Assembly (NCBI GenBank): GCA_030824035.1
Contig: JAVBYL010000011.1
Span: 1 to 33,092, forward strand
DNA length: 33,092 nucleotides
Direction: 5' to 3'
Source of the DNA: Humidesulfovibrio sp.
GTDB taxonomy: Bacteria; Desulfobacterota; Desulfovibrionia; Desulfovibrionales; Desulfovibrionaceae
Numbering within the stretch: position 1 is the stretch's first letter; each line of letters begins with the position of its first letter. The notes beneath the pieces are model-generated. The model saw nothing but the letters and a program-made list of their open reading frames with translations, was not told the origin of the DNA and did no database searches. The position numbers were made by a program, and so were the translations under genes. Shown piece after piece: positions 2,742 to 30,025 of the stretch.

Positions 2742-3221
2742 TCAGCCCGCCTCGGACGCTTCGCCCATGCGGCACACGGTGTCGAACTCCGCCTTGGTGA
2801 TGGGCATGACCGACAGCCGGGACCCCTTGCGCAACAGCTCCATGCCGGACAGGGCGGGCACCACGCGCATGACCTTGAGCGGCACCGGCGTGGCGAACTT
2901 GCAAACGAAGCGCACATCCGGCGCGAACCACAGGGGCCTTTCCGGCGTGGACCTGGGGTCGAAGTGGCTGTCCTGCGGGTCAAAGGCGGTGGCGTCCGGC
3001 TGCCCGGCCCGCACAATGCGCGCGACGCCCACCGCCGAGGGGTCGGTGACGCTGTGGTAGAACAGCGCCATATCGCCCTCGGCCATTTCGTCGCGGATGT
3101 AATTGCGCGCCTGAAAATTCCGCACGCCGCTCCAACTGGTGGTCTGGTCCGGCTCGGCGGCAAGGTCGTCGATGGAGTAGCAGCCCGGCTCGGACTTCAG
3201 CAGCCAGTATTTGGTTCCCAT
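2742..3221 (-). CDS. EVE domain-containing protein
   Basis: 159 residues, the usual length of stand-alone EVE proteins (PUA-like superfamily). The N-terminal YWLLKSEP signature, the W-S-G-V-R-N segment near 30-35 and the FYHS segment near 54-57 are hallmark positions. EVE domains bind modified bases in DNA or RNA through an aromatic cage; the ligand here is unknown. The start at 3221 is chosen because it gives the family N-terminus and has a G-rich ribosome site upstream; a much longer open frame in phase is an artefact of high GC. It heads a short leftward unit with the acetyltransferase. Confidence 0.9.
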   Translation of the reverse strand: MGTKYWLLKSEPGCYSIDDLAAEPDQTTSWSGVRNFQARNYIRDEMAEGDMALFYHSVTDPSAVGVARIVRAGQPDATAFDPQDSHFDPRSTPERPLWFAPDVRFVCKFATPVPLKVMRVVPALSGMELLRKGSRLSVMPITKAEFDTVCRMGEASEAG

Positions 3222-3376: not shown

Positions 3377-4438
3377 TTAGGCCTGCCCGTAGGCCGCCTC
3401 TTCCTTGGCGCTGGCCTTGCGCGCCTTGTACATGCTGCCCAAAATGATCACCGCGCCCATGAGCAGGGCGGCGCACATGATGAGGAAGCTGGCCTTGTCC
3501 ATGAGGGCCACGTTCTCCGGGGCCACATCCAGCAGGCCAAGCTCGGCCAGGTACTTGGGCACGGCCAGGGCGCGGCTCACGGCCACGATGAGCATGATGG
3601 AGCCCATGACGAACTTGATCATGGATTCCTTGACGATGGTGGTGCCGATGGCACCCAGCTGCACGCCCAGCAGCGAACCCGCCAGGATGATGAGGGTGAG
3701 GCGGATGTCGACCATGCCGTGCATGGCCCAGTTGATGGTGCCGCCCAGGCCCATGGCGAAGGCGATGACCAGCTCCGTGGCCGAGGCCACCAACCCGCTG
3801 GCGCCGATGACGTAGATCATGCCCGGCACGCCGATGAAGCCGCCCACGGCGATGGTGGCGGCCAGCATGCCGGTGGCGAAGCCCACGGGCACGGTGAACC
3901 ACATGGAGATGCGCACTCCGGCGGTCTTGAAGGTCATCATGGGCCACAGCTCGATCTTCTGCAGGCGCTTGGCCAAGGGGGCCATGGGCTCCGCGCCGCC
4001 GTCGTCCTTGGAGGTCATGGCGTCGTAAAACACGTAACCGCCCACGATGACCAGCACGGCCACGAAGGACAGGCTCACATACAGGTTGGAGCCGGACTGG
4101 CCCCATTTGTCCAGAATGAAGTTCTGCAGCTTGATGCCCACCTGCACGCCCACACCGGCGCTGGCAGCCATCACCAGGCCGAGCTTGATGTCCACCTGGC
4201 CGTAGCGGAAGCGCTTGATGGCGCCCACCAGCGCCTTGGGGAACTTGTGGCACATGTTGCTGGCCACGGCCACGGTTCCGGGCACGCCCAGGCTCATCAT
4301 GCCCGGGGTGAGCACAAAGGCCCCGCCGGAGCCGATGAAGCCGCTGACCAGACCGCCGATGAAGCCGACGATGAACAGGAAGGCGATGGAGGAAGCGGAC
4401 AGGTCGATGAATTTCAAGGTGTCGAGGGCGATGTCCAT
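3377..4438 (-). CDS. TauE/SafE family sulfite/anion exporter
   Basis: 353 residues with about eight hydrophobic membrane segments. The N-terminal half contains FIGGLVSGFIGSGGAF and the second half GGFIGVPGM, the paired glycine-rich repeats of the TauE/SafE (DUF81) family, whose members export sulfite, sulfoacetate or similar anions across the inner membrane. A cytoplasmic loop near residues 145-165 is charged. It is the last gene of the operon that starts at 7862, and the presence of a SulP carrier two genes upstream supports a role in sulfur oxyanion traffic, though the substrate is inferred. Confidence 0.9.
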   Translation of the reverse strand: MDIALDTLKFIDLSASSIAFLFIVGFIGGLVSGFIGSGGAFVLTPGMMSLGVPGTVAVASNMCHKFPKALVGAIKRFRYGQVDIKLGLVMAASAGVGVQVGIKLQNFILDKWGQSGSNLYVSLSFVAVLVIVGGYVFYDAMTSKDDGGAEPMAPLAKRLQKIELWPMMTFKTAGVRISMWFTVPVGFATGMLAATIAVGGFIGVPGMIYVIGASGLVASATELVIAFAMGLGGTINWAMHGMVDIRLTLIILAGSLLGVQLGAIGTTIVKESMIKFVMGSIMLIVAVSRALAVPKYLAELGLLDVAPENVALMDKASFLIMCAALLMGAVIILGSMYKARKASAKEEAAYGQA

Positions 4439-4466: not shown

Positions 4467-4763
4467 CTAGGCGTTGAGGGTGGCGCGCACTTCGGGGCGC
4501 TTGGTCTTGGTGGGCTGCGCGGTCTTGGCCGGCTGCTTGGCGGTTATGCCCAGCGCGCTCCACAGGTTGGAGGCAAAGCCGCCGTGCACGTAGGAGACCA
4601 GGAACACGGTGGCGATGGGCATGGCCGCGTACACCCCCCCGCGCGAGAACATCTCGGTGATGGGGGTTGCGAACTGGAACACCGCGCCATACACGACCGT
4701 GCTGGCCGCGCCGAATCCGATCATTCTGATGAAGGCCTGTTTTTTGGTGATTTCCTGAGCCAT
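4467..4763 (-). CDS. Small inner-membrane protein, unknown function
   Basis: 98 residues. The start at 4763 is preceded by GGAGG. Two hydrophobic segments (about residues 14-32 and 44-60) are followed by a basic, Lys/Thr-rich tail, so a two-pass membrane protein with a cytoplasmic C-terminus is likely. It lies between the SulP carrier and the TauE/SafE exporter with short gaps, so a helper or subunit role for the exporter is plausible but not shown. I do not recognise a family motif. Confidence 0.7.
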   Translation of the reverse strand: MAQEITKKQAFIRMIGFGAASTVVYGAVFQFATPITEMFSRGGVYAAMPIATVFLVSYVHGGFASNLWSALGITAKQPAKTAQPTKTKRPEVRATLNA

Positions 4764-4841: not shown

Positions 4842-7055
4842 CTAGTGTTTTGCCGCGTATGCCCGCGGGCGCAGTCGTTGCGCCAGGCCCGGAGTGGCCG
4901 GGGCCTTGTCGCGCGGGCCGCCCCGGGGCCGCTGCCTGGGCAAGAACGACAGCAGCGGGCAGGCGCCTCCGCAGGCCGGGTCCTTGGCCTGCTCGTGCAC
5001 CACCCGGATGGCCGTGGCGGCGGTGGGGAAAAAGTGGTCCAGGCCGAGCTTCTCCACCAGGTGGCTGCGGCGCAGCACGCCCATGACGGACTCGTTGACG
5101 CCCGCCAGGGAGACATCCACGCCCACGCGGCGGCAGGCGTCCACAATGCGGCCCAGGGCCTCCATGCCGGAGGCGTCCATGTCGTTGATGCCCTTGGCCA
5201 CGATGATGATGTGCCGCAGGTTGGGCTTGGTCAGCCGCCGGTCGCTCACCGTGTCTTCCAGGTGGCTGGCGTTGGCGAAGAACAGCGGGCCCTCAAAGCG
5301 GATCACGTCCACGTGCTCGCACTCGATGAGCTCGTATTCCTCCGCGCAGCGCAGGATGTTGTCCTCGGCCAGGGAGAGGGAGCGGACCTTGGGGCGCATG
5401 CTCTTGTACAGGAACACGCCCAGGGAAAGCGCCACGCCGATCATGATGCCTTTGTCCAGGTGCGGGGCGAAGGCCAGGGTGGCGGCGAAGGTGACCACGG
5501 CCACCACGCCGTCGTACCATTGGGCCTGCCACGCGTGGACCACGCCGGAAACGTTCAGCAGGCCCACCACGGCCATCATGATGACCGCGGCCAGCACGGC
5601 CTGCGGCAGGTGATACAAAAGCGGGGTGAAGAACAGCAGCACGCCGAGCACCACCACGCTGGTGATGACGCTGGACAGGCCCGTCAGCGCCCCGGCCTGC
5701 AGGTTGACGGCGGAGCGGGAAAACGAGCCGGACACTGGGTAGCTGCTGGTGGCCGCGCCCAGAATATTGGCCAGCCCCTGGCCGATGAGCTCCTGGTTGG
5801 GGTCCAGGCGCTGGCCGGTCTTGTCGGCTATGGCCTTGGCGATGGAGATGGCCTCCATGAAGCCCAGGATGGCGATGATGACCGCGTAGGACAGCAGGTG
5901 CAGGGCCATGCCGGACTCGAACTTCGGCACGGCGAGGCTGGGCAGGCCCTCCGGAATGGCGCCCACCACGGCGCCGCCGCCGCTGAGCGGCAGGCCCTCG
6001 GCCTTCAGGGGGGCGTTGCCCACCTTGAACCGCCAGGTGCGCCCGTCGGTCTCGGCCCCGGTGGGCAGTTGATCCGCCGGGTACACCCCGGCGGCCTCCG
6101 CAGGCTGCCGCACGGTGGCGAACAGCATGCCGCGCAGGGCCGCGCGCTGGTGGCGGGCCGCCAGCTTCTGCTGCTCCATGTCGTGGTTGATGCGCATCAG
6201 GTCGCTTTCGGCGATGATCTGCGCCGCAAAGTCCCCCTGCTGCTTGGACTGCTCCAGGGCGGCGGTGGCCTGCGTGCGCTGCGCGGCAAGCCGGCCCACA
6301 CGCTCGGTAGCCTCGTTGAAGGCCGTGATGGCGGCAACGGCCGGGGCGGAATGGACGGCCGAGAGCTCCACCGTGGCGGTGCGCTCAAAACCCGTGGCCC
6401 AGGAAATGACCGAGGTGACCACCACGGCGGCGAGCACGGCGGGAACCTTTGGCGAAAGCCGCTTCAGCCCCACCATGATGGCAAGCGCCAGCAGGCCCAT
6501 GCCCAGCGTGGGCCAGTGGGTGTAGTGCAGTGCCGAGGACAGCACATTGCGCACGGTCTCGTAGTGGTGTTCGGCGTTGTCTACGGAAACGCCGAACATC
6601 TTGGACAGCTGGCTGGAGGCGATGATGAGGGCCGCGGCGTTGGTGAAGCCGTTCACCACCGGGTGCGAGAGAAAGTTCACCACCAGGCCCAGGCGCAACA
6701 CGCCGAGGGAAAGCTGGAACAGGCCCACGAAGACCGACAGCAGGATGGCGTAGGCTATGTAGCTCTCGCTTCCGGCCGTGGCCAGGGGCTCCAGGCTGGC
6801 AGCCGTCATCAGGGAAACCACGGCCACGGGACCGGTGGCCAGCTGGCGGCTGGAGCCGAACAGCGAGGCGACCATGGGCGGGAGGAAGGCCGCATACAGC
6901 CCGTAGTACGCTGGCAGCCCCGCGAGCTGGGCATAGGCCATGCTCTGCGGAATTAGCACCAGCGCGACCGTCATGCCCGCCGTGGCGTCACGCTTGAGCG
7001 TGGCGAGGCTCATGTCCTTGAACCAGGCGAGAAAGGGCAGCAGTTTCGTGAGCAT
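4842..7055 (-). CDS. SulP family inorganic anion transporter with STAS domain
   Basis: 737 residues from the second of two adjacent ATGs, which gives the better spacing (4 bases) to GGAGG. The N-terminal SulP signature region (ALVLIPQSMAYAQLAGLP, about residues 31-48) and the repeated membrane segments to about 550 mark a sulfate, bicarbonate or related anion carrier of the inner membrane. A cytoplasmic STAS domain at about 575-690 carries the DMDASG motif. Unusual is an insertion of about 130 residues (roughly 228-360) with a strongly charged, heptad-like helical part, placed between two transport segments where most SulP proteins have a short loop. The C-terminus has a CGGAC motif and a basic tail. 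The operon context also includes a TauE/SafE exporter. Confidence 0.92.
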   Translation of the reverse strand: MLTKLLPFLAWFKDMSLATLKRDATAGMTVALVLIPQSMAYAQLAGLPAYYGLYAAFLPPMVASLFGSSRQLATGPVAVVSLMTAASLEPLATAGSESYIAYAILLSVFVGLFQLSLGVLRLGLVVNFLSHPVVNGFTNAAALIIASSQLSKMFGVSVDNAEHHYETVRNVLSSALHYTHWPTLGMGLLALAIMVGLKRLSPKVPAVLAAVVVTSVISWATGFERTATVELSAVHSAPAVAAITAFNEATERVGRLAAQRTQATAALEQSKQQGDFAAQIIAESDLMRINHDMEQQKLAARHQRAALRGMLFATVRQPAEAAGVYPADQLPTGAETDGRTWRFKVGNAPLKAEGLPLSGGGAVVGAIPEGLPSLAVPKFESGMALHLLSYAVIIAILGFMEAISIAKAIADKTGQRLDPNQELIGQGLANILGAATSSYPVSGSFSRSAVNLQAGALTGLSSVITSVVVLGVLLFFTPLLYHLPQAVLAAVIMMAVVGLLNVSGVVHAWQAQWYDGVVAVVTFAATLAFAPHLDKGIMIGVALSLGVFLYKSMRPKVRSLSLAEDNILRCAEEYELIECEHVDVIRFEGPLFFANASHLEDTVSDRRLTKPNLRHIIIVAKGINDMDASGMEALGRIVDACRRVGVDVSLAGVNESVMGVLRRSHLVEKLGLDHFFPTAATAIRVVHEQAKDPACGGACPLLSFLPRQRPRGGPRDKAPATPGLAQRLRPRAYAAKH

Positions 7056-7123
7056 CATTCCTCCAAAAAACAGTCAGCGGGCGGAACGGGCGAAATGTGG
7101 CGACGATGCGCCACGTGTCGCCG

Positions 7124-7663
7124 TCAGCACTTCAGGCAAAATTCCGGCACCATCAGGGCCGCCTGCCGTCTTTCGGCCTCCGGCCTGCGGGTGATGACGA
7201 ACTCCACGCGCCGCAGCTCCAGGGTCACAGCGTTGAGCACCTCGTCGCGCTGGCCCTGGCGAAGGATGTGCGCGCAGCGCACGCCCCGGCGCTGGGCCTC
7301 GTCGAGCAGGGGCTGCCCGGCGGCGCGGGCCCGGGCCTCGAAGTCTTCCTGGCGGCGTTCCGGCGCGCTTACGCTCAGCAGCACCAGGTCGAAGCAGAGG
7401 CGCTCGGCCAGGTTCACGCTGTAGGTGACCATGGCCCCGGGCACGCCGTCCTGCTCGGCCAGCACCAGAATCTTGCGGTGCTCGGCGTGGAAGTCCCCCA
7501 AAATCTCGCGCGCCAAAGCGTTCTCGCCCGCCTCGGCCAGGGAGAGCGCCTCGCCGTAGGTTTCCATGGCCTCGCGCCAGCCACCCCGCTGCCGCAAGGC
7601 GATTCGCGGCTGCTTGAGCGGGAGTTCCATCGCTTCACGAACCTTATGGCTGGGCTTGGGCAT
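7124..7663 (-). CDS. Universal stress protein (UspA-like)
   Basis: 179 residues. The start at 7663 has GGAGG 6 bases upstream; the frame is open further, but that extension is Pro/Arg-rich shadow sequence. Residues 1-60 are a helical extension; from about 63 (KILVLAE) the alternating strand-helix pattern of the Usp fold appears, with RQGQRDEVL and a final FVITRR strand. The glycine-rich ATP loop of ATP-binding Usp proteins is not evident. It sits 22 bases after the 58-aa gene and upstream of the SulP carrier, so it may couple transport to stress; ligand unknown. Confidence 0.7.
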   Translation of the reverse strand: MPKPSHKVREAMELPLKQPRIALRQRGGWREAMETYGEALSLAEAGENALAREILGDFHAEHRKILVLAEQDGVPGAMVTYSVNLAERLCFDLVLLSVSAPERRQEDFEARARAAGQPLLDEAQRRGVRCAHILRQGQRDEVLNAVTLELRRVEFVITRRPEAERRQAALMVPEFCLKC

Positions 7664-7685
7664 GGCGCGCCTCCGCAGCTGTGGG

Positions 7686-7862
7686 CTAGGCTTTGAGGCT
7701 GGGGCGCGGACGTTTGGCCTTGGCGGCGGTCCGCTTGGCCTGGGTCTGGAGCTGATTGGCGTCATCCTTGCCAAAAACCTCGCGGGCTTCCTTGTCCAGG
7801 TTGCGCTCGGCAAAGGCGGCGGCGGCGTATGCGGTTTCCATGGTGTCACGCAGGCTTTTCAT
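7686..7862 (-). CDS. Small conserved-looking protein, unknown function
   Basis: 58 residues from an ATG at 7862 with GAGGGG 5 bases upstream. The N-terminal half is an amphipathic, Ala-rich helix (AYAAAAFAERN) and the C-terminal half is Lys/Arg/Ala-rich. It is the first gene of the leftward operon containing the Usp-like protein and the SulP carrier. No function can be assigned. Confidence 0.65.
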   Translation of the reverse strand: MKSLRDTMETAYAAAAFAERNLDKEAREVFGKDDANQLQTQAKRTAAKAKRPRPSLKA

Positions 7863-7938
7863 AACGACCCCTCGGGTTGGCGTTTGTGTTGGCCCGCTTA
7901 TTTCAAGGGATGTGCCGCAGGGGGGATGCAGCGTAACA

Positions 7939-7993: not shown

Positions 7994-8097
7994 GTTGCAT
8001 ATCGCAACACGCGGACGAAACATAACGCCCATCATGCTAATATTAAACGTTTTTTATTGTGCAACACAGAACACGGGAGGCCGTTGCAAATAGCAAC
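7994..8097. promoter_or_regulatory. Pair of GTTGC-N5-GCAAC palindromes
   Basis: Two copies of the palindrome lie at 7994-8008 and 8083-8097, 89 bases apart centre to centre, with a related half-site (TGCAACA) at 8060-8066. Repeated identical arms with different 5-base centres suggest two binding sites for one dimeric regulator, possibly with looping. The regulator is unknown. Confidence 0.5.
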
Positions 8098-8138
8098 AGA
8101 CCACAAGAAGCGATGGGATGACACTCTGTGAATCCGCT

Positions 8139-8168
8139 TTGACATGGGGTGAAATGCGGGGGTAAGCA
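8139..8168 (+). promoter_or_regulatory. Possible sigma-70 promoter of the Lon-like gene
   Basis: TTGACA at 8139-8144 and a weak TAAGCA at 8163-8168 are 18 bases apart, about 55 bases before the start codon. The -10 element is poor, so the call is tentative. Confidence 0.3.
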
Positions 8169-8221: not shown

Positions 8222-10279
8222 ATGATTTTTTTCCGCAAGCCTGAAGAAGAAAGCGCGGGCCCGACTAAGGGGCTGGCCGATTTGCGGGCCCAGGTGAAGG
8301 GTGCCGCGCTGCCGGAGCATGTGGCCGCCGTGGTGGCCAAGGAGCTGGAGCGCCTGGACAAGACCGACCCCTCGGTGGGGGAGTACGCCATCGGGCTCAA
8401 CTACATCGATTGGCTGAGCGCCCTGCCCTGGCGCACCGCCACGGAGGACTGCCTCGACTTTGCCCGCGTGGAGCGCACCCTGAGCGACCGGCACTTCGGC
8501 CTGGACCACGTGAAGGAGCGCCTGCTGGAGTATCTGGCCGGGCGCACCCTGGCCGCCTCCGCCCCGCCCCATGTATTGGTGGTGGACGATGAAGAGATCG
8601 CCCGCACCAACCTGGAGCATGTGCTCAAAAAGGAAGGCTACGCGGTGCGCACCGCCGTCAACGGGCTGGATGCCCTGGAGATGGTGCGCGCCTGGAGCTT
8701 CGACCTCATCATCACCGACCTGAAGATGGACAAGATGGACGGCATGACGCTGCTGGCGGAGGCCGGGCGGCTCTCGCCGGCCACGCAGATCATCATCGTC
8801 ACCGGGTTCGCCACGGTGCAGTCCGCCGTGCAGGCCATGCGCACCGGCGCGGCGCACTACCTCACCAAGCCCATCAGCCTGGATGATTTGCGCGGCACCG
8901 TGCGCGAGGTGCTGGGCAAGCGCAAGGCCCTGGCCCCGGCGCGCGGCCCCGTGCTTTGCTTCACCGGGCCTCCCGGTACGGGCAAAACCTCCATCGGCAT
9001 GGCCATAGCCGAGGCCCTGGGCCGCAAGTTCCACCGCATGTCCATGGCGGGCATGCGCGACGAGGCCGAACTGCGCGGCCACCGCCGTACCTACGTGGGA
9101 GCCATGCCCGGCAAGATCATCCAGGCCATCAAGCGGCTGGGGGTCAACAACCCCGTCATCATGCTCGACGAAATAGACAAGGTGGGCCAAGACTTCCGCG
9201 GCGACCCGGGCGCGGTGTTCCTGGAGGTGCTGGACCCGGAGCAGAACTGCCAGTTCGTGGACCTGTTCCTGGATGTGCCCTTCGACCTCTCCCAGGTGAT
9301 GTTCATCGCCACGGCCAACGACCTTTCCCGCCTGGACGCGCCCCTGCAAGACCGCCTGGAGGTGGTGCATTTTCCCGGCTACACCGAGACCGAAAAAGAG
9401 CAGATCGCCCTGAGGCACATGGTTCCCCGCCAGTGCGCGGAGCATGGCCTGACGCACCCCTTCCCGAACTTTACCCCGGAGGCGGTGCGCACCATTGTGC
9501 GCGACTACACGCGGGAGGCGGGCGTGCGCAACCTGGACCGCGAGATTGGCAGCGTGTGCCGCAAGCTGGCGCGGCTGGCCCTCAAGGAGGCCGCCCCCGA
9601 CGCAGGCACAGACCCGCCGCAGGCCGGAGCGTACCCCCGGCCCGGCGCCTACCCGCACACCGTGGACGCGGCACTGGTGACAAACCTGCTTGGCCCCCGG
9701 CGGCATACCCACGAATCCGCGCACCCGGCGCAGCGCCCCGGCGTGGTCACCGGGCTGGTTTGGAGCGATACGGGCGGCGAGATTGTGCTGGTGGAGGCGG
9801 CGAAGATGCGCGGCACCGGCCAGCTCTTGCTCACCGGCTCGCTGGGCGCGGTGCTCAAGGAGTCCGCCCAGACCGCCCTGAGCTACATCCGGGGCAACGC
9901 CGAGCGCTTCGGCCTGGACCCGGACTTCTTTGCCAACCAGGACCTGCACATCCACATCCCGGCCGGAGCCATCCCCAAGGACGGCCCCTCGGCGGGGGTC
10001 ACCATCCTCATGGCGCTGCTCTCGCTTTTGACAGGCCGACCAGGCAAGCCTGGGGTGGCCCTCACCGGGGAGATGTCGCTTGGGGGAACCCTGCTGCCGG
10101 TGGCGGGCATCCGCGAAAAGATCCTCGCGGCGCAGCGCGGCGGCGTACACACCGTGGCCCTGCCCGAGGGCAACAGGCCGGAGGCAGAGGCCCTGGAAGC
10201 GGACCTCCGCGCCGCGATACACGTTGTGCTGGCCCGCGAGGCCCTGGAGCTTGTGGACGTGGTGCTGGAAGGGAAGTGA
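8222..10279 (+). CDS. Lon-type ATP-dependent protease with an inserted response-regulator receiver domain
   Basis: 685 residues from the ATG at 8222, which has AGGAGG 7 bases upstream. The usual Lon N-terminal substrate domain is absent; residues 30-106 match the helical linker just before the AAA+ core (YIDWLSALPW). A complete receiver domain (about 117-232) follows, with acidic pair D122-D123, phospho-acceptor D166 in LIITDLKM and conserved K216. AAA+ elements then resume: Walker A GPPGTGKT at 249-256 and Walker B VIMLDEID at 312-319. The protease domain has catalytic S590 in PKDGPSAG and K633. Phosphorylation probably gates unfolding or proteolysis in the cytoplasm; this is inferred. A kinase/regulator pair lies 3 kb downstream. 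Confidence 0.92.
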   Translation: MIFFRKPEEESAGPTKGLADLRAQVKGAALPEHVAAVVAKELERLDKTDPSVGEYAIGLNYIDWLSALPWRTATEDCLDFARVERTLSDRHFGLDHVKERLLEYLAGRTLAASAPPHVLVVDDEEIARTNLEHVLKKEGYAVRTAVNGLDALEMVRAWSFDLIITDLKMDKMDGMTLLAEAGRLSPATQIIIVTGFATVQSAVQAMRTGAAHYLTKPISLDDLRGTVREVLGKRKALAPARGPVLCFTGPPGTGKTSIGMAIAEALGRKFHRMSMAGMRDEAELRGHRRTYVGAMPGKIIQAIKRLGVNNPVIMLDEIDKVGQDFRGDPGAVFLEVLDPEQNCQFVDLFLDVPFDLSQVMFIATANDLSRLDAPLQDRLEVVHFPGYTETEKEQIALRHMVPRQCAEHGLTHPFPNFTPEAVRTIVRDYTREAGVRNLDREIGSVCRKLARLALKEAAPDAGTDPPQAGAYPRPGAYPHTVDAALVTNLLGPRRHTHESAHPAQRPGVVTGLVWSDTGGEIVLVEAAKMRGTGQLLLTGSLGAVLKESAQTALSYIRGNAERFGLDPDFFANQDLHIHIPAGAIPKDGPSAGVTILMALLSLLTGRPGKPGVALTGEMSLGGTLLPVAGIREKILAAQRGGVHTVALPEGNRPEAEALEADLRAAIHVVLAREALELVDVVLEGK

Positions 10280-10370
10280 GGACGCCAGGGCCTGAGCGAA
10301 TGGGCCTGGACGAATGGGGAGGGCGCATTATCTTGGGGGCAGGCCCGCATGGCGCGGGCATTGGAGGCAT

Positions 10371-11849
10371 ATGAATCCTCGCAGCACCAAGGCGACGCCC
10401 CGTACGGGCTGGAACTTCGACAACAGCTACGCCCGCCTGCCCGGAGCCCTGCATGTGCGGATGAGCCCGGAGCCGGTGCGCGCGCCGCGCCTGGTCCTGT
10501 TCAACCGTCCGCTCGCCGGGGATTTGGGCCTGGACCCGGAAACCCTGGCTGGAGAACAGGGCACAGCAGTCTTTGCGGGCAACCGCATTCCCGCTGGAGC
10601 GGAGCCCCTGGCCCAGGCCTACGCCGGGCACCAGTTCGGGCACTTCACCATGCTGGGCGACGGCCGAGCCATCCTGCTGGGCGAGCACGTCACCCCAGCT
10701 GGCGAACGCTTCGACATCCAGCTCAAGGGCGCGGGCCAGACGGCGTTTTCCCGCATGGGCGATGGTCGCGCCGCCCTGGGCCCCATGCTGCGGGAGTACC
10801 TCGTCAGCGAGGCCATGCACGCCCTGGGCATTCCGACCACCCGCAGCCTTGCCGTGGCTTCCACCGGCGAATCGGTGTACCGCGAAGACGCGCTTCCCGG
10901 CGCCATCCTCACCCGCGTGGCGGCCAGCCACATCCGCGTCGGCACGTTTCAGTACGCCGCCTCGCTCGGGGACAGGCAGGTTCTCCAGGCCCTGTTCGAC
11001 CACACCCTGCACCGGCACTACCCGGAGCTGGCCACGGCGGCGAATCCCGCAGCCGCGCTCCTGCGCGCAGTGGTGGAGCGGCAGGCGTCGTTGGTGGCCC
11101 AGTGGCAGCTTGTGGGCTTCATCCACGGGGTGATGAACACGGACAACATGTCCCTGTGCGGCGAAACCATCGACTACGGCCCGTGCGCGTTCATGGACGC
11201 CTACGCCCAGGACACGGTGTTCAGCTCCATCGACCAGCATGGCCGCTACGCCTACGGCAACCAGCCGTACATGGCGCAGTGGAATCTGGCCCGCTTCGCC
11301 GAAACGCTCCTGCCCCTGCTGCATGCGGAAGAAGAGCAGGCCATCGCACTGGCCGAGGAAAGCCTGCTTTCCTTTGCGGATGCTTTTCAGCGTTTCTGGC
11401 TTTCCGGAATGCGCGGCAAGCTCGGGTTGTTCACTCGGGAGGACGGCGACCTGGAGCTCGTCCAGGAGCTGCTGGCCTGCATGCAGGCGATCCACGCGGA
11501 CTACACAATCACCTTCCGCGACCTGACGGCGTCCGTGCTCGCAGATTCGCCGGTGTTTCAGGACGCGGCCTGCGCCCAGTGGCACACGCGCTGGCAGGCG
11601 CGGCTGGCGCGACAGCCGCAGTCCGGGGAGGACGTGCGCAGGCTGATGCAGGAGCGCAACCCTGTGGCCATTCCCCGCAATGCGTTCGTGGAGGAAGCGC
11701 TTAGAGCCGCCGTGGAGAACGGCGACTACGCCCCGGTGGAGCGGCTGCTCATGGCCGTGTCGCGGCCGTACGAGGATGGGCCGGATCAGGCTGCCTATCG
11801 CACGCCGCCGCCGCCAATCGCAGGCTACAAGACCTTCTGCGGCACCTGA
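10371..11849 (+). CDS. selO: Protein adenylyltransferase SelO
   Basis: 492 residues, normal for the SelO (YdiU/UPF0061) family of pseudokinase-fold enzymes that transfer AMP from ATP to protein hydroxyl groups. Family signatures are clear: GHQFGHFTMLGDGRA, QLKGAGQTAFSRMGDGRA, GVMNTDNMS with the metal-binding Asn/Asp, and IDYGPCAFMD. The C-terminus ends YKTFCGT, with a cysteine in the region where some eukaryotic members carry selenocysteine. The start at 10371 follows GGAGG at a short 3-base spacing. It lies 91 bases after the Lon-like gene on the same strand and may share its transcript. Confidence 0.95.
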   Translation: MNPRSTKATPRTGWNFDNSYARLPGALHVRMSPEPVRAPRLVLFNRPLAGDLGLDPETLAGEQGTAVFAGNRIPAGAEPLAQAYAGHQFGHFTMLGDGRAILLGEHVTPAGERFDIQLKGAGQTAFSRMGDGRAALGPMLREYLVSEAMHALGIPTTRSLAVASTGESVYREDALPGAILTRVAASHIRVGTFQYAASLGDRQVLQALFDHTLHRHYPELATAANPAAALLRAVVERQASLVAQWQLVGFIHGVMNTDNMSLCGETIDYGPCAFMDAYAQDTVFSSIDQHGRYAYGNQPYMAQWNLARFAETLLPLLHAEEEQAIALAEESLLSFADAFQRFWLSGMRGKLGLFTREDGDLELVQELLACMQAIHADYTITFRDLTASVLADSPVFQDAACAQWHTRWQARLARQPQSGEDVRRLMQERNPVAIPRNAFVEEALRAAVENGDYAPVERLLMAVSRPYEDGPDQAAYRTPPPPIAGYKTFCGT

Positions 11850-11892: not shown

Positions 11893-13250
11893 CTAGTTCA
11901 GCCCGGCCCGCTTGAGCTTGCGCCAGAGCGAGGCGCGGTCGATGCTGAGGATCTCCGCCGCGCGGGACTTGTTGCCGCCGGTTTGCTCCAGCACCCAGAG
12001 GATGTACTGGCGCTCGTTCTCCTCCAGGGTGGACAGGCCGCCCTGGCGCGTGGTTCTGAGCTGCGGCTGCGCCGCCTGCAGGTCCGGGGGCAGGTGGACC
12101 ACCTCCACGGTGTCGCCCTCGGCCAGCACCACGGCACGCTCCATGAGATTTTCCAGCTCGCGGATGTTGCCGGGGAAGGGATAGGCGGCGAGGATCTCCA
12201 GCACCTCGGGCGAGATCTCGCGCACCTCGCGCCCCAGCAGTTCGGAATACTTGAGCAGGAAGTGCCGGGCCAGCAGGGGGATGTCCTCGCGGCGCTCCGC
12301 CAGGGCGGGCAGGCGCAGGGTGATGACGTTCAAACGGTAGTACAGGTCGAGGCGGAAGCTCCCGGACTCGGCCTCCGCGGCGAGGTCCTTGTTGGTGGCG
12401 GCGATGACGCGCACATCCACGGGAATATCCACCGTGCCGCCCACCCGCAGCAGCTTGCGCTCCTGCAGCACGCGCAGCAGGCGCACCTGCATGGCCGGGG
12501 TCATCTCCCCCACCTCATCCAGAAAAAGCGTGCCGCCCTCGGCGGCCTCGAACAGTCCGGCCTTGCGCTCCATGGCCCCGGTGTAGGCCCCTTTCTCGTG
12601 GCCGAAGAGCTCCCCGGCCAGCAGCTCTTCGCTGAAGGCCCCGCAGTTGACGGCCAAAAACCGCTTGCCCGCGCGCTGGCTGGACTGGTGCACGGCACGG
12701 GCCACCAGTTCCTTGCCGGTGCCTGTTTCGCCCAGCAGGAGCACCGTGGACGAGGTTGGAGCCACCTGGGCTATGGACTTGAGCAGGCTGGCCATGGCCG
12801 GGCCCTTGCCCACCAGCAGCGGCGGGGAGTCGCGATCCTTCAGCCGCTGGCGCAGGTCCAGCACCTCCCGGCGCAACCGGCTCGACTCCACGGCCTTGGC
12901 CGTGAGGGCGCGCACCTCGTCGAGGTTGAGGGGCTTGGCCAGGTAGGAGTACGCGCCGCGGTTCATGGCCATCACGGCACCGGGCACCGTGGCGTAGCCG
13001 GTCATCACCACCACCTCCAGCCCAGGGTGCAGCTTGCGCGCGCGCTCCAGCAGGCCGATGCCGTCCAGCTCGCTGGCCTCGCCCAGGCGCAGGTCCGTCA
13101 GCAGCAGGTCGTATTCGGCCTTGTCCAGCTCGGCCAGGGCCGCGCGGGAATCGCCCACGGACTGGGCCTGGTAGCCCGCCCGCGCCAAAATATGCGCCAG
13201 GTTCTCCCGGGCAATGGTTTCATCATCCACCACCAGCACGCGCCCGGCGC

Positions 13251-13254
<4 letters not shown>
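11893..13254 (-). CDS. Sigma-54-dependent response regulator (NtrC family)
   Basis: 453 residues in three parts. A receiver domain (1-120) has the DD pair at 10-11, phospho-acceptor D54 and K107. A sigma-54-interacting AAA+ domain follows with Walker A GETGTGKE at 175-182, the sigma-54 contact loop GAYTGA at 222-227 (Tyr in place of the usual Phe) and LFLDEVGEM. A Fis-type helix-turn-helix occupies about 410-450 (NKSRAAEILSIDRASLWRKLK). It should activate sigma-54 promoters when phosphorylated. Its start overlaps the stop of the kinase gene by 4 bases (ATGA), so the two form a translationally coupled pair. Confidence 0.95.
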
Positions 13255-14705
<1,451 letters not shown>

Positions 14706-15481: not shown

Positions 15482-17983
15482 TTAAGAGTTCTCTTCGACA
15501 ATGCTCAAATATTCGTCGCTATCGTTTTCTGTTGCCTCAATGTCATATTGCCATGTTGCTGGTCTAACCAGCCGAGCACCGACCGAATGCAACGCGCCGT
15601 ATATGCACCTCTTGTCAACAAAGCGCCTGATTCTATTCTCAGCGTGGGCCACAATCATATCCACCGTCAGAGGTTGGCCAGCAGCTTCTTGCATGATAGC
15701 CTTAACTGCGTCGGTTACTGTTTCACGACGTGGCTCACCCCACTCATTCAGGTATAGGTATTGGCCTTGGCTTACCGATAATCGGCTATCCAAAAAAGAT
15801 AGGCCGAAGACTTCCTCTGCAGGGATCTCGAAACTAAGTTTAAGGCTCTGGTCCAATTCAGATATATGGATCCCTTTTCTGCGCTGTTCCAATGCCCGCA
15901 CAATCTCGTCGAACAGAAAAGGCTGCATGTCCCTCTTAACAGCTACGTCCCTGTCGTTAATTCCCCACCGCGCAGAGCCGATTTTTAAAAGGGGATCATC
16001 TGCCACTATCTGAAAAGTGCTGCTAACGCCTCTAATCGCGCAGAGGCGTTGCTTGATTTCTTCCCCCTTTAAGGGGCGGCCAGCCGTTCTCAGCAGAGTC
16101 AAGATCGTCTCACGGACTTCAAGCCGACTCGCCTCCGAGAGAACTCCGGGGATTGCCCAAACCATCCGCCCTAGCCCCCGCAAATTGCTGCGCTCTCTTA
16201 AAGCGATATCGAGATGATATTTATCTGCGCCTTCTGGCACGCTCTCTGGTGAACGCTCTGACAACAATTCAAGGATCTGGCCACAGTGCCATTGTCGATC
16301 TTGCCCATCTTCGAGGATCATCTCTTCTGCGGCCTGAGCTAAGGCTTCCATTTCTGTAGCGCTAAGCTTCAGGTGCTTACGAATGCCAAAAATTCCAGGC
16401 CCCAAAAGTAGGCCAACTTGGGTCGCCGCCGAATGTGCTCTCCTGACATCCAAAGCTCGACCGCCAAAACTTGAAGCCTTCGCCGCGATTTCACTGTAGT
16501 GAAGAGGCTCAAGGCTCTCTTCCAACACACCAGTACAAATTTTCTCAGCACCTCGCCCATGAGCTCGCAATATCCGCGTCTCATCGGATGTAACAAAAAT
16601 ACAACGCTCGGAAGCCTTCTTCCATAGAAGTAACGCAAACTCTGCCGCCTCTCCAGGAAGTAGTGCACCTACGATTGACTTACAATATTCTTCTGTGCAT
16701 TGCCTCTCAGCACTGGCAGCAAGCAAAAGTTTTGCTTCTTTTACAATTGATTCCCACCGAAGAGGAGACATAAATGAAAAATACTCGACTCCATCAACTT
16801 CAACAAGTGACACTCGTGAGTCCGTTACGTTACTGAGCAAGTATCGCACAGCCTCAGCGTGTTCCCCAATCCCCTCAAACCAGGGATCGACAGCCTCAAT
16901 GCCAAGTAGAGGAAGGGGATAGCGTCTGCCGACAAGAAGAATCTTAAGTTTCATTGCGAGCAAGTCATCCCACAACTCTACAGAAATCAATCTCTTAAGA
17001 GTTTTTGCCTCAATCTGCCGGATACGCTCACGGGTGAGCCCATAAAGATCTCCGACCCCCGCTAGGGTTTCTGGGCGCCCGTTCAACCCCATACGACGCC
17101 TCAAGATGTCGCCCACACGAGGGGAGAGAGAGGCTAAAGTCCTTTCAATCGCTGCCAACAACGTAGTGTCCGTCTGTACGGGCAGCCCACCATCTGATGG
17201 CGACCCCGCAAGAGGGCCTTTTGCCAATGCACTCCGCAGTATGCTCAAGAGGTCTACTTGTGACGTTCTGCCAAAATTTTTAAAGCGGCAGAGCTCGGAT
17301 AGGCGGAGCTTGCGCAGGTCGGCAACCTTATAGATTTCATTCTGCCTAAAAACATTTGAAAGCCGAACAGTCATGTTCATCGTGCTAAACTCTTGTTCAG
17401 CGAGCCAAGGTGGAGCAGCCTGTGCCAAAGCACACGGATCATCACGATCAGCCCCAATTAGACTGCTATAGCGATAAAGACCAGTCTGCTCTCTTAAATC
17501 TCTGGAGAGATGATGTTCGTTACTTTGGTAGGAAGTATCATCGAATATTTCTGCACTTAGTAAGGCGTCAACGTGCTCAGGATGCTCAGCGACATATGTT
17601 GATACCCACCCGCTGAAGTCACTCTTGTGGCGGGGCAGGCGCGGAATGTTTAGATGACTTGCATCATATCCCCACCCTTTTGTGGCGAGATGTATGCTAT
17701 GCCCCTCAACCTCAGCAACAGGGTTAGAACTGGCATCATACCCCGGTGGCAACGCATGCATAGCTGCGGCTGTAAGCAAAACTCGGCCTGGAAACAGTTT
17801 TGCGCAGTCTTCATAAGTATGAGAAGGGCTCCGACTGAAACCCACGTGCACCACAGCACTCGCCTGTTCCTCCGATCGAGACGACCAAGCTTTCAGCAAA
17901 GGCTCAAGGTCCTTATGCACCCCGACCTCCCAGCCCCCACAAACACTACGAAGCATCAAAAAGGCTCTAAGTGGGGTCGACAC
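15482..17983 (-). CDS. Multi-domain DNA-binding protein with RNAP alpha-CTD-like and sigma-70 region-4-like parts
   Basis: 833 residues from a GTG at 17983, directly after the stop of the upstream gene, with AAGGTGG upstream. Residues 1-200 are unrecognised. Residues 203-252 resemble the RNA polymerase alpha C-terminal helix-hairpin fold (LRLSELCRFKNFGRTSQVDL). Residues 275-332 strongly resemble sigma-70 region 4, including LTRERIRQIEAKTLKRL. The remainder contains several winged-helix-like units; two (around LHYSEIAAKASSFGG and GRPLKGEEIKQRL) resemble HARE-HTH modules, known in restriction and chromatin proteins. It probably binds DNA, perhaps recognising modified bases or promoters for the system. 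It is the last gene of the defence operon. Role is inferred only. Confidence 0.75.
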   Translation of the reverse strand: MSTPLRAFLMLRSVCGGWEVGVHKDLEPLLKAWSSRSEEQASAVVHVGFSRSPSHTYEDCAKLFPGRVLLTAAAMHALPPGYDASSNPVAEVEGHSIHLATKGWGYDASHLNIPRLPRHKSDFSGWVSTYVAEHPEHVDALLSAEIFDDTSYQSNEHHLSRDLREQTGLYRYSSLIGADRDDPCALAQAAPPWLAEQEFSTMNMTVRLSNVFRQNEIYKVADLRKLRLSELCRFKNFGRTSQVDLLSILRSALAKGPLAGSPSDGGLPVQTDTTLLAAIERTLASLSPRVGDILRRRMGLNGRPETLAGVGDLYGLTRERIRQIEAKTLKRLISVELWDDLLAMKLKILLVGRRYPLPLLGIEAVDPWFEGIGEHAEAVRYLLSNVTDSRVSLVEVDGVEYFSFMSPLRWESIVKEAKLLLAASAERQCTEEYCKSIVGALLPGEAAEFALLLWKKASERCIFVTSDETRILRAHGRGAEKICTGVLEESLEPLHYSEIAAKASSFGGRALDVRRAHSAATQVGLLLGPGIFGIRKHLKLSATEMEALAQAAEEMILEDGQDRQWHCGQILELLSERSPESVPEGADKYHLDIALRERSNLRGLGRMVWAIPGVLSEASRLEVRETILTLLRTAGRPLKGEEIKQRLCAIRGVSSTFQIVADDPLLKIGSARWGINDRDVAVKRDMQPFLFDEIVRALEQRRKGIHISELDQSLKLSFEIPAEEVFGLSFLDSRLSVSQGQYLYLNEWGEPRRETVTDAVKAIMQEAAGQPLTVDMIVAHAENRIRRFVDKRCIYGALHSVGARLVRPATWQYDIEATENDSDEYLSIVEENS

Positions 17984-18352
17984 TTAGACTACCACCTTGT
18001 CCACTTGCTCAAGTAGCCCAATAAAGTCAATTTCCCCAGCTTTTACTTGATCATGAAGCTCGTTCACGCCCCAGTCGGCCAACCGCTCAATTAAGCGGTA
18101 AGGCGTTGTTTGCTCAAGATGCTCACTCATTAGCGCTTCGACGCTTCGCTTTAAGATTTGCTCGGGATCAAGAGAACCGATGTTTAGAAAAGGCTTCCGC
18201 TTGCCAATTTCCGGGGGGACAACGCCCTGAGCAATAGCCAGGGCTACCGCAAACCGATAACCGTCCATCTTCTCGGCAAAGATGCCTCGTTCCTTCAATT
18301 CGTCGAGTTTTGCATCGCCAGCTTCGGACAAACCGATTGTCGTCAGTTCCAT
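17984..18352 (-). CDS. Defence-operon protein, unknown function
   Basis: 122 residues. The ATG at 18352 overlaps the stop of the ATPase gene by one base (TGATG) and has GAGG 8 bases upstream; a GTG one codon earlier is possible. The N-terminus (TIGLSEAGDAKLDELK, then FAEKMDGYRFAVALAIAQG) looks like a small helical DNA-binding or dimerising protein of the kind that accompanies DndD-like ATPases, superficially like DndE, but I see no firm motif. The tight coupling suggests a fixed ratio or a complex with the ATPase. Confidence 0.7.
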   Translation of the reverse strand: MELTTIGLSEAGDAKLDELKERGIFAEKMDGYRFAVALAIAQGVVPPEIGKRKPFLNIGSLDPEQILKRSVEALMSEHLEQTTPYRLIERLADWGVNELHDQVKAGEIDFIGLLEQVDKVVV

Positions 18353-20334
18353 CACTGCTTCCTCACAATCTTGGACTGGGTGTCCGTCACTTCGACTATC
18401 TCATATACCAATCCGACCTTATGGTTTACCATGGCAAGATCAGTTTCTAATCTTATTTCTCCTCCATGCACTAAAAGGACGAACTGGCTTGATACTGTGG
18501 GGAGATACGTCAGGATATTGGTTCGATGATTTGGATCGAGTCTCCCAAAAGGGGTATCCATTATGATCGGCCCAATTGCACGCCCTGTTCGATTCAACCC
18601 ATCTATCAGTGAAAGTGCAACAACATGCTCAGCTCCGGCGCTTCGTATTGATACTTTCCGCCCTTGGCTATCAAAAATACTGAGACCATACCTGTCGTTG
18701 ATTTCAAGGCCTCGATAGGCTTTTTGCGTTGTCATTTGCTTAAATGCTGCACTCGCATAGCTTTCTACTTTCATTCTCAGTCTGTCGCGCAAGCGTTCCA
18801 CACTCGCCTGAAATGTCTTTTCCAAGTCTGCAGCAAGCTTTGCCTTCTGTGTGCTCTTGTGGGTACGAGCCCCCGCCAGACCTTCGATGGCCTTCTGTGC
18901 TATTGCCAACTCGGACTTTGTGTTTTGAATACGCTGCGCCACGTTTTTAATTGACTCTGTAAGGCGCCCTTCTTCCTTCAGTTTCTCCGCAGCCAGCACT
19001 CTTTTACGAGCGAGTTCTGCAGTATCCTGCCCAGCGATTTCATCCGAGATTCGCTCGGCCTCATTTTCAGCTTTTTGGGATGCGACTTCAGCAATCCGGA
19101 TATCACGATCAATAGACACTAAGCGCTCACGCGCTCTTACCCCCCGAATCTTACTGAGTGTATTAATCTGGGCAGATACGTCGTTTAGATCGTGTAACAC
19201 ATCACCAGACTGCGCGGCCTCCACTTCAAGCCTGCCTTGGTCTGCGCCTAGTTGATCACGCTTTTCCGCAAAGAGAGGTTGATGACAGGTCGGACATTCA
19301 TTGGTGCCCAGAAGCTTCTTGATATCTTTAATCTGTCCCTCAATTCGCGACCGCTTTTCAAGCGCCTGAATAAGATCCTGCTGGCGCACGGTAAGTATTG
19401 CCAGCTTAACGCTTAGCTTCGCGGAGAGGAGATCTTTCCAGGCTTCCGCAAGGAGCTCTTTACGCTCTTCATGCTTACGTTCAGCAATGTCAATTTGTGT
19501 CCTCAACGCTGCACGTGCGATGTCTAGGTTTGCCTTCAAGGCAAGGACTCTGGCACCACTTTCAAGCTCATCTTCTAGCTTCGCTCGCTCATCACGAGTC
19601 TCTGCCAACTTTCCCTGAAGCGCACTAATGTCAGACTCTAAAGTATCGAGTTGGGTTGTGAGGCGTGTGGTATTATCAGCCTGCGCTTTGAGCCCTGCAA
19701 CATGGGTCAAATCATGTGCCTGCCGCTTCTGCGCAGCTTTCAGTATAGCACCCAGCTCATTACGCCCATTGATTAGGGCTGGCACACCCAAAACTTGTTC
19801 AATAGCCTCTTTGATTAAACGGCCTTGCTCGCTTCCTTCGACAAGAAGTTCTTCATACTGATCAAGCAACTCACCATCAAACAGGAAGAAACGCGAAACC
19901 TGCTCTGGGGCGATCTGGTTAAGTTCAGCCTCATATACGCTTCCACTCAGGACATGCCCATCTCGCGAGAGATGCAAAGACACGATAAAGTCCTCTGGCT
20001 TAGTTGGAGTTGTAATTTGTGGACGCCGCTCCGCAGTTCGCCGCAACTCATACGTGTGCCCATCTGCCTCAAATTCGATGTAGACCTCTACACGCCAGTC
20101 ATCCTGCGCCGCAGCATCCTTGTTTACAATGTCTTGCAAAAGAATTGGTCTCGAGTGCCTACTGAGTGCCTTGTTGTAGAAACCCCAGCGGATAGCATTC
20201 ATCAAAGACGTTTTGCCGCGCATATTGTCGCCGAGCACGAGCATAATGTTCTGAGTCTCGTCTGTTGGGAACTCAATAACATTATCTCCTTTATATGGCA
20301 TAAAATTCGTGACTGTTAGCTTCAAGAGTTTCAT
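18352..20334 (-). CDS. DndD-like SMC/Rad50-type ATPase
   Basis: 660 residues; the start at 20334 has GGAGGAG upstream and lies 2 bases after the previous stop. The N-terminal head has Walker A GDNMRGKTS at 35-43 and the Q-loop region FFLFDGE at 149-155, which is typical of DndD. Two long coiled coils (about 200-340 and 360-520) flank a zinc hook C-P-T-C at 347-350 as in Rad50. The C-terminal head has the ABC signature SAGAEH at 565-570 and Walker B region IIMDTPFGRLD at 590-600, in which Thr-Pro follows the aspartate, as in DndD relatives. It should bind DNA and hydrolyse ATP. DndD proteins belong to phosphorothioation systems, but no DndA, DndB or DndC genes are near, so another modification, probably methylation, is the partner here. 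Confidence 0.88.
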   Translation of the reverse strand: MKLLKLTVTNFMPYKGDNVIEFPTDETQNIMLVLGDNMRGKTSLMNAIRWGFYNKALSRHSRPILLQDIVNKDAAAQDDWRVEVYIEFEADGHTYELRRTAERRPQITTPTKPEDFIVSLHLSRDGHVLSGSVYEAELNQIAPEQVSRFFLFDGELLDQYEELLVEGSEQGRLIKEAIEQVLGVPALINGRNELGAILKAAQKRQAHDLTHVAGLKAQADNTTRLTTQLDTLESDISALQGKLAETRDERAKLEDELESGARVLALKANLDIARAALRTQIDIAERKHEERKELLAEAWKDLLSAKLSVKLAILTVRQQDLIQALEKRSRIEGQIKDIKKLLGTNECPTCHQPLFAEKRDQLGADQGRLEVEAAQSGDVLHDLNDVSAQINTLSKIRGVRARERLVSIDRDIRIAEVASQKAENEAERISDEIAGQDTAELARKRVLAAEKLKEEGRLTESIKNVAQRIQNTKSELAIAQKAIEGLAGARTHKSTQKAKLAADLEKTFQASVERLRDRLRMKVESYASAAFKQMTTQKAYRGLEINDRYGLSIFDSQGRKVSIRSAGAEHVVALSLIDGLNRTGRAIGPIIMDTPFGRLDPNHRTNILTYLPTVSSQFVLLVHGGEIRLETDLAMVNHKVGLVYEIVEVTDTQSKIVRKQ

Positions 20335-20336
20335 GG

Positions 20337-20549
20337 CTACTCCTCCCGCCCAACGGCCATCGCATCAACAATTTCGTCAATAAGACGTTCCATCGCAGCT
20401 GATGGCTGGTCGCGTTTCAGGCTGAACTGGTGGCGACGCTGAATCTCAAAACAGTTTCGCAGTAAAGTTTCGTCAAGATCTGGTGCCACCGCCGCTCTCA
20501 CCTCAAGCAGGACCTCAAGGATAAGGTTATCCTGGTTGTTATCACTCAT
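20337..20549 (-). CDS. Small acidic defence-operon protein
   Basis: 70 residues. The ATG at 20549 overlaps the helicase stop by 8 bases and has GGAG 8 bases upstream; an in-frame GTG at 20558 is less likely. The sequence is helical and acidic, with LLEVRAAVAPDLDETLLRNCFEIQ in the middle (shown here only as its key part) and ends GREE. Comparable short proteins sit between a helicase and a DndD-like ATPase in other modification-linked clusters, from memory. It may bridge the two large subunits. No enzymatic motif is visible. Confidence 0.65.
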   Translation of the reverse strand: MSDNNQDNLILEVLLEVRAAVAPDLDETLLRNCFEIQRRHQFSLKRDQPSAAMERLIDEIVDAMAVGREE

Positions 20550-22650: not shown

Positions 22651-22663
22651 GCCAGCCTCACAA

Positions 22664-23737
22664 CTAAGTATTTACGATGCCAGCGGTTAGGTCATCATCA
22701 GCCATGCGAAGTGAATCGAACCGGCCGCGAGAACCTGCGATGTATTCTAAGTTAGCTTCTACACCGACCCACTTGCGCCCCATCTCTTCTGCAACTGACC
22801 CGGTTGTATTTGAACCAGCAAATGGATCGAGTACCAAATCATTTTCATCAGTTAAAAACTGGATAAAGAACGCAGCGAGAGCCGACTGCATCCTAGCGGG
22901 ATGAGCAGCCAGCCCCCTCTCTTTACAATAACCTCTATAGTTCGAATCCCACTTTGTGCCGGTGAACTTAAGCAAAGCTTCTGGGTAGTGTTCACCAGTG
23001 AAATCGAGCACATTCGGGCCGATCGCACCGCCGTGATCCGCAAGAAAACCCGTTTTAGAGATCACGTGCCCCGATGGACGGACCCCTGCATTGTACTTTT
23101 GAGACTTCAAAAGTCGCTTCATATCTTGGCTGTATGGGTTAAGGACTCTTCGGTTATCCGCCTTAGGATACTCTGTCTTCGACATCCACCAAGCGTGAGT
23201 ATACGAATCTTTGAGCCTGATGCGGTTAACGTTCACCCACGCAGCAGGACCTGGGAGACGCGCGGGGTTATGGCAAATAATATGCTGACAAAGATGAAGA
23301 TTAGCGGCCTTCTTGAATGCAAGCAATGCCTCAAGAGGCAGCGTTGACATTACCGGGACACCCTCTTCCCAGGCATTCCCGATTTCAATAACAATAGATC
23401 CTTCATCTGCTAACATATCAGCAAGTCCTGGCGCGAGTGACTGGAGCCAGTGTATGTAAGCATCACCAGTTTCATTCCCGTATTTCTTCTTGCGGACTAA
23501 TGGAAATGGTGGAGACGTTACAATAAGATCAACCATCCCCTTCATTTTACAAAGCATTGAACTCTGTAGCGCGTTTTCAATACGCCCGTGCAACATTTGT
23601 CCCAAATCAGTACTATATCCGACGCTAACAGCATTATCTTCTGTCGAAGGTACAGATACACCGGCACTACTCTCTTCAGACGCCTCTACGCTGACTGATG
23701 CTTTGTGACAAAATTTATTTACAGGCTTAGAACTCAA
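22664..23737 (-). CDS. DNA methyltransferase, beta class (probably N4-cytosine or N6-adenine)
   Basis: 357 residues if it starts at the TTG at 23737, which has a strong AGGAGG 4 bases upstream; an ATG at 23839 would add 34 residues but lacks a well-placed ribosome site. Motif IV TSPPF lies near residue 74 and motif I DPFAGSNTTG near 304, an order (IV before I) that defines the beta class. The aromatic after SPP fits amino-methyltransferases; S-P-P is common in N4-cytosine enzymes but the base is not certain. It uses S-adenosylmethionine to mark host DNA, presumably protecting it from the nuclease-helicase encoded next. It is the first gene of the operon. Confidence 0.9.
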   Translation of the reverse strand: MSSKPVNKFCHKASVSVEASEESSAGVSVPSTEDNAVSVGYSTDLGQMLHGRIENALQSSMLCKMKGMVDLIVTSPPFPLVRKKKYGNETGDAYIHWLQSLAPGLADMLADEGSIVIEIGNAWEEGVPVMSTLPLEALLAFKKAANLHLCQHIICHNPARLPGPAAWVNVNRIRLKDSYTHAWWMSKTEYPKADNRRVLNPYSQDMKRLLKSQKYNAGVRPSGHVISKTGFLADHGGAIGPNVLDFTGEHYPEALLKFTGTKWDSNYRGYCKERGLAAHPARMQSALAAFFIQFLTDENDLVLDPFAGSNTTGSVAEEMGRKWVGVEANLEYIAGSRGRFDSLRMADDDLTAGIVNT

Positions 23738-29619: not shown

Positions 29620-29629
29620 GCAACCTGCC

Positions 29630-29845
29630 TCACTCACTCAACCTGGCGGCAAGGGCCAGAAGGTCAGAGCCACGCCAAAAGGTCATGGAGCCGTGGCGGA
29701 CAGGCGCAGGAAAGCGGCCAGACTTGACCCCCGCCCACCAAGTTGCCGCGCTGACATCGATGAACGGGGGACTGCCCCCCTTCGTGCGTACAATGGCTTT
29801 GACGCGGTAAAGGCCGCTGGGGTCGATCCGAGAACCGTGATGCAT
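29630..29845 (-). CDS. AlpA-like excisionase/regulator
   Basis: 71 residues from an ATG at 29845 with GGAGG 10 bases upstream. The layout fits the AlpA/excisionase helix-turn-helix family: a VSAATWWAGVKSGRFPAPV recognition part followed by the wing-type TFWRGSDLLAL. AlpA proteins promote excision by controlling the integrase gene, so it may regulate the leftward integrase and the replication genes. It is the first gene of the replication module. Confidence 0.75.
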   Translation of the reverse strand: MHHGSRIDPSGLYRVKAIVRTKGGSPPFIDVSAATWWAGVKSGRFPAPVRHGSMTFWRGSDLLALAARLSE

Positions 29846-30001: not shown

Positions 30002-30025
30002 CAGAGGATTACAGTAATTCTGATG

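Follow-up and report, generated by a model that had tools for sequence, protein, structure and literature searches.

A Lon protease with a receiver domain inserted before its AAA+ core in Humidesulfovibrio sp., a putative proteolytic branch of a three-component system

A stretch of 33,092 nucleotides from Humidesulfovibrio sp. (GenBank assembly GCA_030824035.1, contig JAVBYL010000011.1, positions 1 to 33,092, forward strand; hereafter the window) contains an open reading frame (ORF; 8222-10279, +) that, read from an ATG, encodes an intact protein of 685 amino acids (aa) in which a complete receiver domain stands between the three-helix (3H) bundle and the AAA+ core of a Lon-type protease. We consider it fairly likely that this protein, called RR-Lon (response regulator Lon) in the following, is a response regulator with a Lon protease as its output, acting under phospho-control in a branched three-component system with a histidine kinase and an NtrC-type response regulator encoded nearby. 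Proteins of this kind are already known (from Desulfovibrio vulgaris, since 2011) and little studied, and the window adds a new member. New here are a putative kinase-recognition helix (alpha-1) common to the receivers of RR-Lon and its NtrC partner, a pair of palindromes in the intergenic DNA, and a natural 'delta-N Lon' in which the hexamer-interface residues are kept. The domains of RR-Lon were placed as follows.

8222..10279, forward strand: RR-Lon gene (685 aa), 3H bundle - receiver - AAA+ - Lon protease; from the ORF, Pfam and phmmer matches, and orthologues
8273..8560, forward strand: Lon 3H bundle, residues 18-113; phmmer alignment to MtaLon 236-339, helices 18-113 in the AlphaFold2 (AF2) model
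8570..8926, forward strand: receiver domain, residues 117-235, with D122/D123/D166/T194/K216; Pfam PF00072, AF2 fold, invariant residues
8942..9589, forward strand: AAA+ module and Lon lid, residues 241-456, with Walker A K255 and Walker B D316/E317; Pfam PF00004, PF22667
9662..10267, forward strand: Lon proteolytic domain, residues 481-682, with the Ser590-Lys633 dyad; Pfam PF05362, invariant S590 and K633

Pfam models matched RR-Lon at residues 118-227 (Response_reg, E 1.6e-28), 245-382 (AAA), 407-456 (Lon_lid) and 481-682 (Lon_C, E 5e-68). In phmmer comparisons with B. subtilis Lon (3m6a) and MtaLon (7fd4), residues 13-112 corresponded to the Lon 3H bundle and residues 238-683 to the Lon AAA+/protease core, with the receiver as an insertion between them. 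An AF2 model computed with 26 aligned sequences as input (mean predicted local distance difference test score, pLDDT, of 81) gave residues 117-235 as a complete (beta-alpha)5 fold (pLDDT mostly 84-92), which follows the final helix of the 3H bundle (95-113), precedes the initial strand of the AAA+ module (244) and is joined to both by short connectors, with low confidence at 234-237. The non-receiver part of the model matched Lon cores such as MtaLon in Foldseek (TM-score up to 0.89 by target length, E ~1e-49). An earlier note, made by reading the sequence, had proposed a complete receiver between an N-terminal Lon part and the AAA+ core, which Pfam, phmmer and AF2 all bore out, and D166, K216 and S590 lie exactly where that note put them. 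It had also stated that the Lon substrate domain is missing, and this agrees with the loss of the N-terminal globular domain and the long helix (approximately residues 1-240 of a normal Lon): no PF02190 match to the globular (LAN) domain was found in RR-Lon, and the alignment starts at MtaLon residue 236. The segment before the receiver, described in the note as a linker, is correctly positioned, but its approximately 112 N-terminal residues constitute the Lon 3H bundle and are thus more than a linker. A short MxFFxK-type motif often opens the orthologues and is found at 8222-8245(+) in the window.

RR-Lon has both parts of the LonA (MEROPS S16) core, the Lon AAA+ core and the Ser-Lys proteolytic domain, as well as the complete response-regulator residue set (acidic pair, phospho-accepting Asp, Thr/Ser and Lys), and matches to the NCBIfam RssB and CpdR models were confined to its receiver. 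The NCBI lon equivalog model TIGR00763 scored 651 bits against a cut-off of 608, so that the protein would be annotated simply as 'endopeptidase La' and its regulatory nature easily hidden. The same match favours a reading of the receiver as a constitutive structural spacer within an ordinary quality-control Lon. We regard this as very improbable, as the genome contains a separate second Lon-family frame without a receiver (C135, 843 aa), the phosphorylation residues are all invariant, and a kinase and an NtrC regulator accompany the gene.

Near-colinear matches to RR-Lon, at 49-89% identity over nearly the full length, were found in 28 of 59 relatives, confirming that the architecture recurs in related genomes, and internal stops were absent among the matches listed. 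Across the phylum, matches of the RR-Lon type occurred in 48 of 395 sampled species (~12%); the gene is widespread among sulfate reducers. In 34 full-length orthologues D122, D123, D166, T194, K216, K255, D316, S590 and K633 were invariant, and Walker B E317 was kept in 33, with Asp in the remaining one; loss of key receiver residues in homologues, which the earlier note had named as an outcome that would speak against it, was thus not seen for any of the five receiver positions. Residues E525 and L620, invariant in a 26-row alignment, correspond (as read off the phmmer alignment) to E613 and L708 of MtaLon, conserved interface residues that were mutated to obtain monomers (PMC10643698), and their invariance indicates that the ring interface is kept in RR-Lon. 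Together, the invariant catalytic and interface residues point to selection on all four parts, the receiver, the motor, the protease and the ring interface. An artefact or frameshift fusion was ruled out by orthologues in several orders and in a bin labelled Nitrospirota. In one relative (G003; L140 ~3167-3185) the RR-Lon match was split into two tblastn pieces approximately 17 bases apart, which suggests a frameshift or an assembly error. Long tblastn spans among the distant matches (L085, L087, L089, L105 and L074, from Chloroflexi, Bacteriovoracaceae and a Proteobacteria bin), considered as candidates for other inserted-domain Lons, were not insertions: each was an ordinary Lon with a distinct receiver match downstream of it, at a distance of at most a few hundred bases.

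The kinase and the NtrC partner lie downstream of RR-Lon on the opposite strand.

11893..13254, reverse strand: NtrC-type response regulator (receiver, sigma-54 AAA+ with GAYTGA, Fis helix-turn-helix), DVU3305-like partner; Pfam, synteny
13251..14705, reverse strand, start codon provisional: histidine kinase (N-terminal membrane segment, HAMP, HisKA, HATPase_c), DVU3304-like; Pfam, synteny

Both genes shared a contig with RR-Lon in 25 of the 28 genomes, and in the other three a contig end lay near RR-Lon or the neighbouring kinase. Two genomes of the genus that lack RR-Lon (G001 and G008, both 99% complete) also lacked a close NtrC partner (best 46% identity). A receiver docks to its kinase by a surface to which helix alpha-1 and the beta5-alpha5 loop both contribute. 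Over alpha-1 (residues 125-137) RR-Lon was 48.5% identical to the receivers of the NtrC partners, which had been picked by adjacency and hence independently of this helix, compared with 20.6% for other NtrC-type paralogues and 24.6% for other receivers of these genomes; over the rest of the receiver domain the contrast was much smaller, 43.7% for the partner against 35.6-40.7% for the two comparison groups. RR-Lon and partner have the alpha-1 signature I-A-R-x-N-L-x-H-x-L in common, and from this helix one kinase is predicted to phosphorylate both. It is probable, judging by these sequence comparisons, that a single kinase phosphorylates RR-Lon and its NtrC partner.

Two receivers bearing the same kinase-recognition helix could also be taken to mean that RR-Lon serves chiefly as a phosphate sink or scaffold, with a receiver that competes against the NtrC partner for the kinase and a Lon part of little importance. 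The chance of this appears slight: Ser590, Lys633, Walker A and B and the ring interface are kept over deep divergence and would be needless in a scaffold, and the phenotype of the D. vulgaris mutant has the same sign as those of the kinase and NtrC mutants, where a sink predicts the opposite. The latter observation comes from a 2023 mutant screen, in which the genes DVU3303 (RR-Lon type), DVU3304 (kinase) and DVU3305 (NtrC type) were all detrimental in chlorate, with cofitness above 0.9 and the same sign (PMC10102598), from which it follows that RR-Lon is not a simple opponent of the pathway.

The DNA between RR-Lon and the divergent operon upstream of it contains the following candidate regulatory elements.

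7994..8008, unstranded: candidate operator palindrome 1, GTTGCATATCGCAAC; half-sites kept in the genus
8083..8097, unstranded, 89 bp from palindrome 1: candidate operator palindrome 2, GTTGCAAATAGCAAC; half-sites kept in the genus
8060..8067, forward strand: conserved half-site TGCAACAC between both palindromes; genus alignment
7903..7917, reverse strand: sigma-54-like element CGGCACATCCCTTGA, CGGCAC-N5-TTGA (GG-N10-GA), before the divergent operon; conserved in the genus alignment
8139..8167, forward strand: promoter-like element TTGACA-N17-GTAAGC before RR-Lon; genus alignment, missed by the consensus scan

In the 2.65-Mb genome assembly (82% complete), GTTGC-N5-GCAAC occurred as an exact match twice, both times in this intergenic region, and the assembly had no further copies that could point to a wider regulon. 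By base composition ~0.003 exact copies were expected in the window, a rough figure, with reasonable estimates well below one. In the genus alignment the half-sites were constant and the inner five bases varied, with a single change in palindrome 2 in one of 13 copies. Six related genomes contained 2-7 copies each, one or two at the RR-Lon locus and others elsewhere, and a reversed control pattern occurred 2-3 times; the motif is therefore not rare genome-wide by itself, and what gives it weight is its paired and conserved placement. The sigma-54-like element sits ~85 bp from palindrome 1. Upstream of RR-Lon the genus alignment keeps TTTGACA-N17-GTA (8138-8167), and no canonical sigma-54 site was found there, a window-wide consensus scan having matched no more than shuffles.

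A response regulator with a Lon protease (DVU3303), together with the kinase DVU3304 and the NtrC-type regulator DVU3305, was described in D. vulgaris Hildenborough by Rajeev et al. 2011 (PMC3333781). Both its own operon and DVU3302-3298 are under the control of DVU3305, whose binding to its own locus has been published; a sigma-54 promoter is present on DVU3302-3298 and none on DVU3303-3305 (PMC4641369), a split that matches the elements of the window. RR-Lon resembles DVU3303 in having receiver and Lon protease in one protein, in its kinase and NtrC-type partner and in the divergent membrane/Usp-type operon including an anion transporter, and it appears to be an orthologue-type counterpart of DVU3303, as far as the published description and the locus content go. 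The divergent operon content and paired palindromes of a DVU3303-type locus are present in the window, with a promoter that is only sigma-54-like. Unlike in D. vulgaris, the kinase/NtrC pair of the window is on the opposite strand, downstream, with a SelO gene in between. A literature search found no biochemical tests of any RR-Lon protein.

In LonA proteins (E. coli Lon, MtaLon, B. subtilis LonA), the 3H bundle, AAA+ module, lid and Ser-Lys protease are the same as in RR-Lon, with about half of the residues identical over the common core and the same AF2 fold, whereas RR-Lon lacks the N-terminal globular domain and the long helix and has the receiver between 3H bundle and AAA+ module. With NtrC and NtrC1 it has in common a receiver directly before a ring-forming AAA+ ATPase, but it differs in having an AAA+ module of the Lon clade, proteolysis as output, a 3H bundle ahead of the receiver and no DNA-binding domain. 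Two-component regulated proteolysis is usually known via adaptors, and the response regulators RssB and CpdR, serving as protease adaptors, tie two-component phosphorylation to AAA+ proteolysis. These are separate ClpXP adaptor proteins, whereas RR-Lon has receiver and protease on one polypeptide, and its protease is Lon.

MtaLon binds substrate through its N-terminal globular domain and is held as a pentamer by the long helices, its ring becoming active when a sixth subunit joins in a substrate-dependent manner (PMC10643698); in NtrC-type regulators phosphorylation of the receiver controls ring assembly, negatively or positively (PMC4878744). A natural 'delta-N Lon' with kept hexamer-interface residues suggests, from its sequence, phosphorylation control of ring assembly. 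In the mechanism that we propose, one membrane kinase would phosphorylate both receivers. The phosphorylated NtrC partner would bind the palindromes and switch on the divergent operon from the sigma-54-like promoter, and would also act on the RR-Lon promoter. Phosphorylation of D166 would alter the receiver, which sits between 3H bundle and AAA+ ring, so that the Lon ring could assemble or open. The receiver would stand in for the missing Lon domains in controlling assembly and access, much as the AAA+ rings in NtrC1 and NtrC are under receiver control. That it is specifically ring assembly which phosphorylation controls is possible, though we hold it with some doubt. Equally tentative is the wider proposal that the globular domain and long helix of Lon have been replaced by an NtrC-like receiver, with one kinase both starting transcription of a stress/anion-transport operon and switching on a Lon dedicated to the removal of specific proteins.

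Alternatively, the receiver could be a docking or phospho-docking domain in place of the lost substrate domain, binding for example a partner protein, its own kinase or the NtrC partner and feeding the pore. We find this unlikely; the full conservation of the phosphorylation residues would go unexplained unless docking were phospho-dependent, and the same-sign cofitness of the three D. vulgaris genes speaks against RR-Lon destroying the kinase or the NtrC partner as an off-switch. The phosphorylation-switched protease put forward in the earlier note, with its receiver residues kept, is still the most economical reading, partially supported by the sequence comparisons; the idea itself is not new.

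Several observations weigh against a phospho-controlled RR-Lon in a branched system. Within the genus the receiver of the partner is not the closest overall to that of RR-Lon (40-45% identity), some unrelated receivers being slightly higher, and a poorly resolved receiver tree does not unite those of RR-Lon and the partner in a single clade, for which reason the claim is limited to alpha-1 similarity. In the window the kinase and NtrC genes do not share an operon with RR-Lon, lying on the opposite strand and beyond SelO. The -12 part of the sigma-54-like element reads GA where GC is expected, hence the qualified name. Finally, the switch may run in either direction, with a receiver that represses or one that activates. 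Origin of the RR-Lon receiver by recent duplication of the partner receiver was also considered and found unsupported, the tree being poorly resolved and without a single clade. If the proposed reading is true, a directly phospho-switched AAA+ protease would offer a simple test of AAA+ ring gating and may provide a natural Lon controllable by phosphorylation.

The remaining genes around RR-Lon are those of the divergent operon and the SelO gene.

7686..7862, reverse strand: small 58-aa ORF, first of the divergent operon; weakly conserved in relatives
7124..7696, reverse strand: Usp-like protein of the divergent operon; itself without a Pfam match, positional homologue at L042 with a sub-threshold Usp match (E 0.007)
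4842..7058, reverse strand: SulP/STAS anion transporter, probable DVU3299 counterpart; Pfam PF00916, PF01740; only in some loci
4467..4763, reverse strand: conserved 98-aa ORF of the divergent operon; synteny
3377..4438, reverse strand: TauE/SafE-type transporter of the divergent operon; Pfam PF01925, synteny
10314..11849, forward strand: SelO-type protein adenylyltransferase, between RR-Lon and the NtrC/kinase genes

The TauE gene, the 98-aa ORF and the Usp-like gene were syntenic across relatives, SulP in some loci only; among the other loci examined, L118 and L119 alone had SelO at this place. Further along the window, PbeC, PbeA, methyltransferase and 833-aa protein genes make up a defence-type island (15482-23839, -).

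15482-17983, reverse strand: 833-aa protein with sigma-70 region 4 and RNA polymerase alpha-CTD-like (C-terminal domain) domains, weak MzaA match
18352-20334, reverse strand: PbeC (E 5e-270)
20542-22650, reverse strand: PbeA (E 2e-203)
22664-23839, reverse strand: type II-like DNA methyltransferase

The island is adjoined by phage or integrative-element genes (26278-32106, -), among them an integrase (30796-32106) and a DUF927/Toprim protein (26278-29193).
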